This document shows positions 20,998 through 52,224 of a stretch of 64,000 nucleotides of DNA, piece by piece (the first letter of the stretch is position 1; every line of letters begins with the position of its first letter). The position numbers were made by a program, and so were the translations under genes. Source of the DNA: Halococcus salsus (GTDB taxonomy: Archaea > Halobacteriota > Halobacteria > Halobacteriales > Halococcaceae); the NCBI RefSeq assembly GCF_009900715.1, contig NZ_JAAAJC010000001.1, positions 609,216-673,215 of the forward strand, given 5' to 3'. Below the pieces are notes generated by a model. It was not told where the DNA came from. It searched no databases and was given only the letters and a program-made list of their open reading frames with translations.

Positions 20998-21459
20998 ATG
21001 ATAGGAATCCTCAAATCGATGGCGACGACGATGAAACACGCGCTCGACGGCGAGACCTTCACCGTCGAATACCCGGACGTCCCGCCCGAGGTCAGCCCAC
21101 GATTCCGCGGGATCCACAAGTTCAGCCAGGAGCGCTGTATCTGGTGTCGCCAGTGCGAGAAGGTCTGTCCGAACGACACGATCCAGATCGTCCAGGACGA
21201 CCAGCGAAACGGCGAGCAGTACAACCTCCACATCGGTCAGTGCATCTACTGCCGCCTCTGTGAGGAGGTCTGCCCCGTCGACGCGATCATCCTGACCCAG
21301 AACTTCGAGTTCACCGGGGACACCAAGGACGACCTCGCGCTCAACAAGGAACAGTTGAAGAACGTACCGTGGTACAAGGATATCGACCCGCTCGAATCAC
21401 GCGAACCCGATCGTGGCGTCTGGATCGGTGACGGCGAAGGCGAAGTCGATTACCAGTAA
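20998..21459 (+). CDS. nuoI: Complex I subunit I, 2[4Fe-4S] ferredoxin-like
   Basis: 153 residues. Two complete cluster motifs are CIWCRQCEKVCP (Cys47, 50, 53, 57) and CIYCRLCEEVCP (Cys82, 85, 88, 92). The tail DIDPLESREPDRGVW ends IGDGEGEVDYQ. Normally nuoJ1-J2-K-L-M-N follow directly; here they do not. Instead the last 25 codons plus stop are repeated 212 bases downstream. The gene itself looks intact and of normal length. Confidence 0.95.
   Translation: MIGILKSMATTMKHALDGETFTVEYPDVPPEVSPRFRGIHKFSQERCIWCRQCEKVCPNDTIQIVQDDQRNGEQYNLHIGQCIYCRLCEEVCPVDAIILTQNFEFTGDTKDDLALNKEQLKNVPWYKDIDPLESREPDRGVWIGDGEGEVDYQ
21382..21459 (+). repeat. nuoI 3' tail, parent copy of a duplication
   Basis: These 78 bases (last 25 codons plus stop of nuoI) match 21594-21671 at 77 of 78 positions. 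The single difference is GGC versus GGT, both glycine. Confidence 0.9.
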
Positions 21460-21510
21460 TCATACGTCGCGCGGTGCGAGGTCGACCGAAGCGAGGGCGG
21501 TCTTTTTCAT

Positions 21511-21581
21511 CCACGTTTTTGCCGTGAGTGGTTTCGAAGCGAGCAAACGCGAGCGAGAAATCCCGAACGGGAAAAAGGTGG
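21511..21581 (-). repeat. Hairpin half of the dispersed intergenic element (copy C)
   Basis: On the minus strand CCACCTTTTTCCCG...GGCAAAAACGTGG forms a long-arm inverted repeat, followed by ATGAAAAAG and CTTCGGTCGACCTCGC. It matches the order in the elements at 7.1 kb and 32.6 kb. It lies exactly in the spacer between the two nuoI tails. Confidence 0.6.
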
Positions 21582-21593
21582 GGTCACGAGGAC

Positions 21594-21671
21594 ATCGACC
21601 CGCTCGAATCACGCGAACCCGATCGTGGCGTCTGGATCGGTGACGGTGAAGGCGAAGTCGATTACCAGTAA
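21594..21671 (+). pseudogene. Duplicated 3' end of nuoI, no start or promoter
   Basis: This is a second copy of the nuoI terminal coding segment including the stop codon. Upstream of it the reading frame loses nuoI identity within a few codons (WYKD of the parent becomes an altered HED), so it is not a whole gene. Its near-perfect identity implies a recent event or gene conversion. No nuoJ follows. Confidence 0.85.
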
Positions 21672-48315: not shown

Positions 48316-48438
48316 GCAGACCACTGTCGGGATCGCCGCATAGCCGTTACGGATGCCGACGGGTCGTTTCACCGCCGCTCCTGCCGAAAACAGTCGTCGG
48401 ATGCGTGTGGTCGCCCGCGGCGCTCCTCCGGTGGGAGA

Positions 48439-48507
48439 TCAATCCCAGAAGGACTGGGTCCGGGCGTACTGGCGCTCTTGGGAGAGGATGTCTCGATAGA
48501 AGTCGTC
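48439..48507 (-). pseudogene. Duplicated 3' end of the Lhr-type helicase gene
   Basis: 69 bases encode DDFYRDILSQERQYARTQSFWD plus stop on the minus strand. They are identical in protein to the last 22 codons of the helicase, whose copy is 48569-48637. 64 of 69 bases match, and all five differences are synonymous third positions. There is no start codon or promoter. Similarity continues weakly past the stop, so this is part of a tandem duplication of about 130 bases (48378-48507 versus 48508-48637). Confidence 0.88.
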
Positions 48508-48539
48508 GCTCCTACTGGAAGCAGTAGTTGCTTGCGCGC

Positions 48540-48556
48540 GGTCGCCTACGGCGACC
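48540..48556. terminator. Perfect 7-bp hairpin downstream of the helicase stop
   Basis: GGTCGCC-TAC-GGCGACC lies in the spacer between the two helicase tails, 13 bases past the real stop. It could terminate helicase transcription. A weaker version lies at the equivalent place in the duplicated copy. Confidence 0.4.
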
Positions 48557-48568
48557 CCACGGTGGGGC

Positions 48569-51406
48569 TCAATCCCAGAAGGATTGGGTCCGCGCGTACT
48601 GGCGCTCTTGGGAGAGGATATCCCGGTAGAAGTCGTCCTCGTTCTCGCGGAGTTTGGCGATGATCCGCGCGGCGTTGTGGGGGCCGACCCCACGGGCGGC
48701 GAGCGCGATGACGGCCTGTTTGCCGTGACTCTGGACCAGGGTCGCGGCCTGGTAGGCTCGCTGGGTCTGCTTCTCCTGCTCGTCGTCCTTCTCGTCGGCC
48801 TTGACCGCCGCGACGACCTCCTCGGCCCACGGGTTGAGCGCCGCGATACGGGTCGAGCCACAGAACGGACACTCCGGTTGGTCGGGGATCCGCCGCACCT
48901 CCTGGGTTCGGTCCCACTCCTGACAGTGGAGACAGAACAGTAACATTCGGTCCTCCTGGATCCGCTCCCGCACGGTGTCGATAACGCTCGCGTCGGCGTT
49001 CTCGGGTGCGAGCAGTTCCCGGCCCGACGACCGACCGTCGATCCCAACGGGGGTGTGTTCGGTGTGGAGCACGACCTCGATCTCCCCGTCTCGGACCCCC
49101 GAGAGCACCGTGCCCGTCGTCTCGATCGCGAGGTCCTCGTGGAAGATCTCGCGGACGGCCTCGTCGTACACAGGTGTGTCTTCGAGCGCCGTGAGGAGGC
49201 GGTCCCGGCCGAACCGGCCATCTCCCCGCCAGGACTGGAGCGCGCCGAACGTCGCCGCGACCTGGGCGAGCTTGAACTTCAGCGCGTCCGAGTTCTTGAG
49301 GCTGAGTTCGATGATCCCCGCGACGTGTTCGGGCTCGGTCTCCCGGAGCACGCCCTCGATATCGGGGCCCGAGATCCCGCGCGGGACGTCGAGTTCGATC
49401 CGATAGGGGTCGATCTCCAACCCCACCGACGAGCCCGTCTGCTGGCCCAGCAGCGCCGAGAGCACCCGCCCGAGGGTCTGGTTGGTGGTGTGGCCGAAAC
49501 AGGCGTTCACGACGATGCTTCGGGGCTCGTACTCCACGACCACCCGCTCGTCGGTCGGCATCGGGCTCCCCGACTCGACCTGCTTTTCGAGCGGGTCGAG
49601 CGCCTCGCCCGCGGTGTACTCGTCGGTGGGATACCGGTCGGCGAGGTCGGCCGCCACTGCCGACCGGGACTCGCCCGACGCGAACGCCTCGCCGACCCAG
49701 CCGCGGATCTCGCCGACCTCGCCCGCGACGGGTTTCGGGACCGGAATCTCGCTGCCGGTCCAGGAGGGGACCTCGCCCGTCGGGTCCTCGATCGGGCTGA
49801 CCTTCACCTCGCTCTCCTCGTCGTCGACCTCCGCGATCCGCCACATCTCCCCCCGCTGGATGAACGTCTCGCCGGGCCCCGCGAAGTTGACCACGAACCG
49901 CTCGTCGAGGCTCCCGATCGCCCGACCCGAAGCCACGTCGGAGACGGTGTAGGTCTCCTCGTCGGGGATCATCGAGAGGTTGGCGTAGAAGTACTGCCAC
50001 GTGCCGCCCGACTTCTCCAACCTGTCCAGATCCTCGTCGAGCCAGAGGACCCGATTGCCCGAGAGTTCGCGTACCACGTCTCGAAAGTCGTCCTCCGTGA
50101 GGTCGCGGAACGGGTAGGCCCGCGTGACGAGGTCGTAGGCCTTCCTGGCGCTGATCTCGCCGAAGTCCATCACGAGCCCTGCGATCTGGTTCGCCACCGT
50201 GTCGAGACTGCCGTGATGAATCTCGGCGGGTTCGACCAGCCCCTCGTGGGCCCGCCGACAGATCGCGAGGGCTTCGAGCGTGTCGTCGGGCCGGGTCGTG
50301 AGGACTGTGCCCGAGGAGAGCTTGTCCGAGCGATGACCCGCCCGTCCGACCCGCTGGAGCAGGCGGGCGACCTCGCGCGGGCTCTGGTACTGGATCACGT
50401 GGTCGACCCGCCCCACGTCGATCCCGAGCTCCATCGAGGAGGTGCAGAGCAGGCCATCGAGTTCGCCGGCCTTGAACGCGTCCTCGACTTCGATCCTCGC
50501 CTCCTTCGAGAGCGAGCCGTGGTGGACTCCGATGGGGAGATCGAGCGCGTTACACCGTGAGCCGAGGGCCTCGGCGGTCTGTCGGGTGTTGACGAATATC
50601 AGGGTGGACGCGTTTTCGCTCACCAGGTCCCGGATCGCCCGGACGTGACTCGCGAGGTCGGGGTCGCTCGCGAGCTTTCCCGCGAGGGTCTCGTCCTCCG
50701 CGGTGACCCGTGGCTCGCGAACCCGGACGTCGAGTCGGCTCCCGACGTCGACTTCCATGATCGCACAACCCCGACCGCCGGTGAGGAACTTCCCGACCTC
50801 GCCGGGGTCGCCGACGGTCGCCGAGAGCCCGACCCGCTGGAACGGCCCCGAGAGCTCGCGGAGGCGTTCGAGCCCGATCGTGAGCTGCGCCCCGCGTTTC
50901 GACGCCGCGAGCTCGTGAACCTCGTCGATCACGACGTGCGAGACGTCGGAGAGCGCCTTCCGGAGCTTCTCGCCCGTCAGCATCGCCTGGAGTGTCTCGG
51001 GTGTGGTCACCAGCACGTCCGGCGGGTCGTTGGCCTGCTGCTGGCGGTGATACTGGGTGGTGTCGCCGTGTCGGACGTCGATCTCGAGTTCTAACTGGTC
51101 GCCCCACCAGTCGAGCCGGTCGCGCATGTCGCGGTTGAGCGCGCGGAGCGGGGTGATGTAGAGCGCGCCGATCCCGAAGCGCTCCTCGCCGGCGAGCGCG
51201 TCGAACACCGGCAGCATCGCGGTCTCGGTCTTTCCAGTCCCCGTAGGTGCGATCACCAGCCCGTCCTTCCCGTCGGCGAGCGGCGGGATGGCGGCGCGCT
51301 GTGGCTCCGTCGGGGTCTCGAACCCCCGTTCGGAGAGCGCCGCCCGGACCCGGGATCCGAGGTGTGTGAAGGCCGCAGAACCGCCGGCGGCCTCGCTCTC
51401 TGCCAT
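48569..51406 (-). CDS. Lhr-type ATP-dependent helicase
   Basis: 945 residues from MAESEAAGGSAAFTHLG. Superfamily 2 core: PTEPQRAAIPPL, Walker A APTGTGKTE (53-61), DEVHEL, SATVGD, helicase C region with FVNTRQTAE and QRVGRAGHRS. The Lhr winged-helix and C-terminal cysteine region is CLHCQEWDRTQEVRRIPDQPECPFCGS. Lhr helicases act in archaeal DNA repair and recombination. The gene tail is repeated just downstream. Next comes the RPA cluster, with a fitting theme of DNA maintenance. Confidence 0.93.
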   Translation of the reverse strand: MAESEAAGGSAAFTHLGSRVRAALSERGFETPTEPQRAAIPPLADGKDGLVIAPTGTGKTETAMLPVFDALAGEERFGIGALYITPLRALNRDMRDRLDWWGDQLELEIDVRHGDTTQYHRQQQANDPPDVLVTTPETLQAMLTGEKLRKALSDVSHVVIDEVHELAASKRGAQLTIGLERLRELSGPFQRVGLSATVGDPGEVGKFLTGGRGCAIMEVDVGSRLDVRVREPRVTAEDETLAGKLASDPDLASHVRAIRDLVSENASTLIFVNTRQTAEALGSRCNALDLPIGVHHGSLSKEARIEVEDAFKAGELDGLLCTSSMELGIDVGRVDHVIQYQSPREVARLLQRVGRAGHRSDKLSSGTVLTTRPDDTLEALAICRRAHEGLVEPAEIHHGSLDTVANQIAGLVMDFGEISARKAYDLVTRAYPFRDLTEDDFRDVVRELSGNRVLWLDEDLDRLEKSGGTWQYFYANLSMIPDEETYTVSDVASGRAIGSLDERFVVNFAGPGETFIQRGEMWRIAEVDDEESEVKVSPIEDPTGEVPSWTGSEIPVPKPVAGEVGEIRGWVGEAFASGESRSAVAADLADRYPTDEYTAGEALDPLEKQVESGSPMPTDERVVVEYEPRSIVVNACFGHTTNQTLGRVLSALLGQQTGSSVGLEIDPYRIELDVPRGISGPDIEGVLRETEPEHVAGIIELSLKNSDALKFKLAQVAATFGALQSWRGDGRFGRDRLLTALEDTPVYDEAVREIFHEDLAIETTGTVLSGVRDGEIEVVLHTEHTPVGIDGRSSGRELLAPENADASVIDTVRERIQEDRMLLFCLHCQEWDRTQEVRRIPDQPECPFCGSTRIAALNPWAEEVVAAVKADEKDDEQEKQTQRAYQAATLVQSHGKQAVIALAARGVGPHNAARIIAKLRENEDDFYRDILSQERQYARTQSFWD

Positions 51407-51444
51407 TGAATCCCTTACGAACGCGACCCGATTAAGAACTCCGC

Positions 51445-52224
51445 TTACACCTGCCGGTAGGCTCCGAGCCGCGTGCCGTCGAGCAGATACGCCTCGCCGT
51501 CCGCCAGCCCGTCGGGCAGGAACGGCGCGAGGAACGCCTGGTGCTCGACGTTGACCCACGTCCCGCCCGAGAGGTCGTTGAACGCCGGGAACACGACCAG
51601 TTCGCCGGTGATATCGAGCTTCTCGTCGTAATGCTCCGCGAAGGGGGCGGGGTCGAGCGGCCCGCGGAGCCACACCCGCTCGGCTCGCGTCCCGCCCACG
51701 TCGTCTTCGAGTCGTACTGCAGGATGTTCGTGGCCGACACAGACCACGTCGGCTTCGAGAACGCGCCGTGCCGGCCAGGTGTGGCCGTGCGCGAATCCCA
51801 CGTCCCCAACCCGGATTCCGCCCGTGGGCGTCACCGCGATCTCACCGTCGGTTCCGCCAGTGACCGACTCGATCTCGCCGTCGTGGTTGCCCTTCACCAC
51901 GGTGACCGCCACCCGATCCGCGAGCGCCGCGAACAGGGCTTCGAGCTCGTCGCGCTCCGGTCCTCGGGAGTCGCCGATGGCGTGGGCGAGGTCGCCGAGG
52001 AAGACCACCCGCTCCACCGCACGGGAATCGACTATCCCGAGGAGGTGTTCACGGCGCTCCCGCGCTTGGTTCGGGAGCGAGACGCCCTCCCACCGGAGCG
52101 CGGCTTCGAGCCCTGCGTGGTAATCGGCCACGCAAAGCACGCGCTCGCCGCCGGCGCGGACGACCGCCGCCGGTTCGCCGGGCACCGGCTCGATTCGGCT
52201 AGAGCGTTCGTCGGCCCGCCCCAT
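51445..52224 (-). CDS. rpe: Calcineurin-like phosphoesterase of the RPA1 operon
   Basis: 259 residues from MGRADERSSRIEP. Metallophosphoesterase motifs: VADYHAGLE, FLGDLAHAIG, KGNHDGEIES and GHEHPAV, with the His/Asp/Asn metal ligands. In Haloferax volcanii the rpa1 operon includes rpap1 and rpe, the same order as here. A nuclease role in repair is suspected from context. It overlaps the rpap1 stop by one base. Confidence 0.88.
   Translation of the reverse strand: MGRADERSSRIEPVPGEPAAVVRAGGERVLCVADYHAGLEAALRWEGVSLPNQARERREHLLGIVDSRAVERVVFLGDLAHAIGDSRGPERDELEALFAALADRVAVTVVKGNHDGEIESVTGGTDGEIAVTPTGGIRVGDVGFAHGHTWPARRVLEADVVCVGHEHPAVRLEDDVGGTRAERVWLRGPLDPAPFAEHYDEKLDITGELVVFPAFNDLSGGTWVNVEHQAFLAPFLPDGLADGEAYLLDGTRLGAYRQV

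Follow-up and report, generated by a model that had tools for sequence, protein, structure and literature searches.

A duplicated lhr tail and spacer in Halococcus salsus, with a spare tail that was probably overwritten from the working gene

In Halococcus salsus, the end of the lhr gene and the spacer behind it form two tandem units of about 130 nt (48377-48637), each composed of a 69-nt tail and a spacer of about 61 nt. Judging from the sequences of related species, we consider it on balance probable that this is an old tandem duplication whose spare tail has been repeatedly overwritten from the working gene by gene conversion. A second case with the same features, at a nuoI-like gene, lies in the same window, by which we mean the whole stretch of 64,000 nt that was analyzed.

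The duplicated tail and spacer of lhr

The lhr gene encodes an Lhr-family DEAD/DEAH helicase with Pfam DEAD, Helicase_C, WH_Lhr, and DEAD_assoc matches, and its open frame, taken from the longest start, spans 48569-51673 on the reverse strand. Its working tail, T1, consists of 22 codons and a TGA (48569-48637) and is followed on the same strand by a 61-nt spacer, S1, that carries the hairpin GGTCGCC-GTA-GGCGACC (48508-48568), by the spare tail, T2 (48439-48507), and by a diverged second copy of the spacer, S2 (48377-48438). T2 begins 130 nt after the start of T1, downstream of the gene end and in frame +1 relative to lhr, and the two tails are identical at 64 of 69 positions, all five differences being silent (TAC/TAT, CGG/CGA, GAT/GAC, GCG/GCC, and CAA/CAG). 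A first-pass annotation of this DNA had correctly described the copy of the last 22 codons and the stop; it had also taken the duplication to be confined to the tail, ending at the stop, which proved mistaken. The spacer too is doubled, since 43 of 59 aligned bases agree between S1 and S2, and their 42 matches compare with at most 31 in 20,000 shuffles. Such a tail copy greatly exceeds what chance would give: when 689 gene tails were scanned, five copies turned up downstream, lhr accounting for three, and another 400 kb of the H. salsus chromosome contained none among 343 predicted genes, where gene calls were simple open-frame picks and the baseline rate comes from 400-kb samples of three genomes plus 80 loci chosen for lhr.

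We compared this region with eight other Halococcus lhr genes that have intact 3' ends, using one genome per species. The only spare tail among them is that of H. morrhuae, located 157 nt downstream, with 88 nt between its two tails. Its spacer agrees with S1 at 84% over the last 55 nt or so, and spacer meets spare tail at an identical junction in the two species (GGAGC followed by GACGACTTC). The sister species of H. salsus (G002) has a single tail, followed by the first half of the spacer and then by sequence that lies beyond S2, an arrangement that a deletion of T2 would leave. Because H. morrhuae has the same tail-spacer-tail order and junction, and the sister species retains part of the spacer, the duplication would predate their divergence, provided that the junction was neither formed twice nor transferred between species.

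Both tails appear to be native. T1 differs from the tail of the sister species by two changes in 69 and T2 by three other changes, so that the sister sequence lies exactly between them; the next nearest tails of other species are 9 changes from T1 (G004) and 7 from T2 (G007), and no other lineage was found to be nearer to either tail than the sister is. These comparisons with related species speak against the outside lhr allele that the first-pass annotation had proposed. The spare tails resemble the gene of their own clade: those of H. salsus and H. morrhuae differ from each other at 15 of 69 positions, compared with five differences between T1 and T2 in H. salsus. In H. morrhuae, homogenization would not be recent, because T2 is 12 changes in 69 from its own T1 and only 6 from the related G004. 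The H. morrhuae spare tail has also acquired three amino acid changes (D>G, E>G, and F>C), at sites that are invariant in nine Halococcus Lhr proteins. As a separate observation in this species, a gene tail at another locus (L038, 10608-11309, reverse strand) is repeated exactly over 60 nt, 85 nt further on, in a region with ambiguous residues where an assembly duplication is possible.

Silent changes, the nuoI tail and concerted evolution

The annotation had argued from five of five silent changes that the extra tail, or the present one, came from another functional lhr allele. Two of the five changes fall on the working gene, in which changes should be silent anyway, and the three on the T2 branch give P = 0.008-0.023 under mutation models with a transition bias of 1-8. 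A stronger argument comes from the spacers, which have diverged by 27%, the tails by 7% (Fisher P 0.0035). Free decay of T2 over the age of the spacers, with spacer divergence split equally between both branches, would be expected to yield about 10 changes, about 8 of them altering amino acids; 3 and 0 are seen. Plain decay is rejected because an absence of amino acid changes would then have a probability of about 5e-4. Thus, the part of the claim that survives is that T2 appears to have been copied from a functional tail recently, or to have been functional until not long ago; what lacks support is that this Halococcus locus received a foreign allele or underwent an integration. Two routes lead to such a T2, namely, overwriting from T1 by gene conversion or the joining of two alleles. 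A dead copy synchronized by conversion looks much like a foreign allele, and the fact that all differences are silent is no proof of the latter by itself.

The annotation had also advised looking at other tail duplications in the genome, of which one lies in the same window. On the forward strand, the tail of a NuoI-like gene (gene 20998-21459; tail 21377-21459) is followed by a 132-nt spacer with an oligo-T, terminator-like stretch (21460-21591) and by a spare tail with two silent differences in 80 nt (21592-21671). This arrangement and its junction (CGAGG followed by ACATCGACC) are common to H. salsus, its sister species, and G006; in G001, part of the spacer is retained but the spare tail is missing. 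The nuoI spacer is about 93-94% identical in the sister species and G006; between H. salsus and G006 it is about 93% identical, and their lhr ends only 82%. Working and spare tails differ at 2 of 80 positions in H. salsus and at 1 of 80 in G006, compared with 15 of 80 between the two spare tails (P 0.0003-0.001), so that nuoI appears to display the pattern of overwriting more clearly than lhr does. In the sister species, the spare nuoI tail has accumulated 9 differences, including two amino acid changes. As the spare tails of nuoI in this species and of lhr in H. morrhuae have decayed, the sequences indicate that the spare tail is not itself maintained. We also observed that both spacers (48508-48568 and 21492-21591) are more conserved across Halococcus than coding divergence predicts.

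Because breakpoints are common to several species and tails match locally, these data point to concerted evolution. Copies are closer within than between species at nuoI and at lhr in H. salsus, and more weakly so in H. morrhuae; the common breakpoints place the duplications before the species split, with interspecies transfer being possible. According to the explanation that we prefer, about 130 nt, comprising the end of lhr and the intergenic spacer, would have been tandemly duplicated in an ancestral Halococcus. The spare tail, having no job of its own, would then have been overwritten by the working tail again and again through conversion between nearby copies, a process that haloarchaeal polyploidy and very active conversion would aid, and the spacers, lying beyond the matching stretch, would have diverged. 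The latest overwriting in H. salsus would have left T1 and T2 five silent changes apart, and some of these differences may be allelic, with T2 recording a former state of the lhr tail. Four findings count against conversion: it would not favor silent differences, so that three of three silent changes on T2 are mildly unlikely (P 0.01-0.02); its tracts would here be confined to about 70-80 nt, compared with the long tracts published for haloarchaea; the H. morrhuae T2 lies farther from its own T1 than from G004; and the nuoI and lhr spacers surpass silent sites in their conservation between species.

Competing explanations

A less probable but serious possibility is the joining of two functional lhr alleles, in which a donor tail and spacer, on linear DNA or a small circle, would have recombined at the 3' end of lhr and left the resident tail downstream. 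The divergence of T1 and T2 at third positions (5/23) equals that of S1 and S2 (16/59; P 0.78), as for haplotypes separated at the sister-species level (silent divergence between H. salsus and its sister, 0.17-0.19); this equality is a direct prediction of allele joining and is tolerated by conversion. The sister sequence is matched by T1 in the 5' half and by T2 in the 3' half, which is the order that a crossover would give, with changes peculiar to T1 confined to the 3' half and those peculiar to T2 to the 5' half. A similar tendency is seen in H. morrhuae (permutation P 0.10 and 0.06, combined 0.04), and the last 15 codons of its working tail hold 7 silent changes relative to G004, compared with 41 changed codons among the preceding 285 (P 0.004), both tests being post hoc and based on few sites; its present tail end may be a replacement by another functional allele. 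Insertions that regenerate the tail are, in addition, known at lhr elsewhere. Against all this, no outside lhr is nearer to either tail than the sister, the junction found in H. morrhuae would require the joining to be repeated exactly, and no integrase lies between the copies.

We regard as doubtful a more general reading, in which tail-spacer-tail structures would be small haloarchaeal cassettes, with or without cargo, that leave and re-enter gene 3' ends by tail recombination, the gene being regenerated each time and lhr being a favored address. Simple tandem slippage followed by chance silent changes, which the annotation had named as its alternative, is improbable: the tandem 130-nt arrangement and the mere three changes on the spare copy would agree with recent replication slippage in the H. 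salsus lineage only, but H. morrhuae has the same structure and junction, the spacers are 27% diverged, and the absence of amino acid changes again conflicts with free decay. Most improbable of all is selection on the spare tail, which might, for example, provide a second Lhr terminus through frameshifting or form part of a small RNA together with the conserved spacer. Although its frame is open back into lhr in H. salsus and H. morrhuae, with the same +1 phase in both, and S1 varies less between species than silent sites do (P 0.006), the H. morrhuae spare tail is altered at invariant positions, most species have no T2, and neither the lhr nor the nuoI spacer has a match in Rfam.

Cargo at other lhr genes and comparison with known systems

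The first-pass annotation had named integration targeted to the 3' end, or allelic replacement, as a possible cause. Neither phage records nor viral contigs contained a free or integrated element with an lhr tail, and no integrase or remains of one were found between the repeats, where the 61 nt in H. salsus (88 nt in H. morrhuae) are too short for an integrase. The window contains no tRNA target, and our literature search returned nothing direct on lhr as an integration site. Matches to a free lhr tail on plasmids had to be discarded because they fall under annotated DEAD/DEAH helicase genes of Natrialbaceae; such lhr-like sequence is carried by plasmids of 160-400 kb in Haloterrigena, Natronorubrum, and relatives. 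The lhr spacer is not a dispersed repeat or MITE, given that its 3' part is found in the genus only at lhr (ten genomes, up to 3 mismatches). The same idea was dropped for the nuoI spacer, whose terminator-like stretch has few weak relatives, none of the checked ones being flanked by duplicated tails.

A survey of 392 haloarchaeal genomes from the order revealed a second, local lhr tail in H. salsus, H. morrhuae, G024, G044, and a Halohasta genome (G172), to which Halohasta litorea (L089/G392) adds one, and neighboring tails are at most about 2.1 kb apart. Two further matches were put aside, one in G259 that belongs to a redundant contig with the whole lhr neighborhood and no element, and a distant one in G380 with three mismatches, which we treated as chance. 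In G024, G044, G172, and H. litorea, the second tails flank cargo. The cargo of G044 (L160, 2883-3750, forward strand) is a gene for an AbrB/MazE-type antitoxin and a companion frame that has no match in Pfam, enclosed by the lhr tail on one side and a degenerate second copy of it on the other. About 1.8 kb separate the working tail from a decaying native tail in H. litorea (L089, 6930-8816) and in G172 (L161), and the genes, annotated in L089, encode a DUF7475 protein and a winged-helix regulator. In G172, the stretch between the tails is identified as an insertion because what follows the second tail is the native neighbor seen in its relative G274, which has one tail (76% identity over 1185 nt). 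Downstream of lhr in G024 (L159, 6200-12000, reverse strand), tandem cassettes of about 1.5-2.1 kb with three unknown genes each, the middle one truncated, all end in an lhr tail fragment, giving four tails in all. A fixed att site at these loci is not indicated, because no recombinase family was found among the tested cargo proteins and tail lengths vary. The survey of the order suggests that the lhr 3' end is a recurrent place of cargo gain in haloarchaea, with the gene tail regenerated. The mechanism of the first-pass annotation, which is our second choice for Halococcus lhr, may fit Halohasta and the other cargo loci better.

Integration by archaeal tyrosine recombinases occurs in the 3' ends of genes and creates attL and attR (reviewed in PMC8371274), and the Halococcus locus resembles it in that a gene tail stands on both sides of a spacer and the gene is intact. 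The locus differs from such integration in its 61-nt spacer, the lack of an integrase, tail lengths that vary between lineages, and the fact that no free element was found. One-sided homology insertion is homology-facilitated illegitimate recombination. Such an event could account for the regenerated tail, the cargo, and the remnant of the native tail that Halohasta shows; alone, it would explain neither a junction common to two species nor the likeness of spare tails to the local gene. The closest likeness to our preferred explanation is concerted evolution by gene conversion, as in tuf, nifH, and rRNA operons and in haloarchaea (PMC8223754), where copies within a genome are closer than their history predicts. 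Conversion is very efficient in the polyploid Haloferax volcanii, acting there on equal sites of different chromosome copies and in long tracts (PMC8223754), and published haloarchaeal tracts range from hundreds of bp to kb. In Halococcus, only a gene tail of 70-80 nt would be converted, the spare copy is no gene, and conversion is what we infer from the pattern; lhr and nuoI offer short, natural, marker-rich loci for testing ectopic gene conversion in polyploid archaea.
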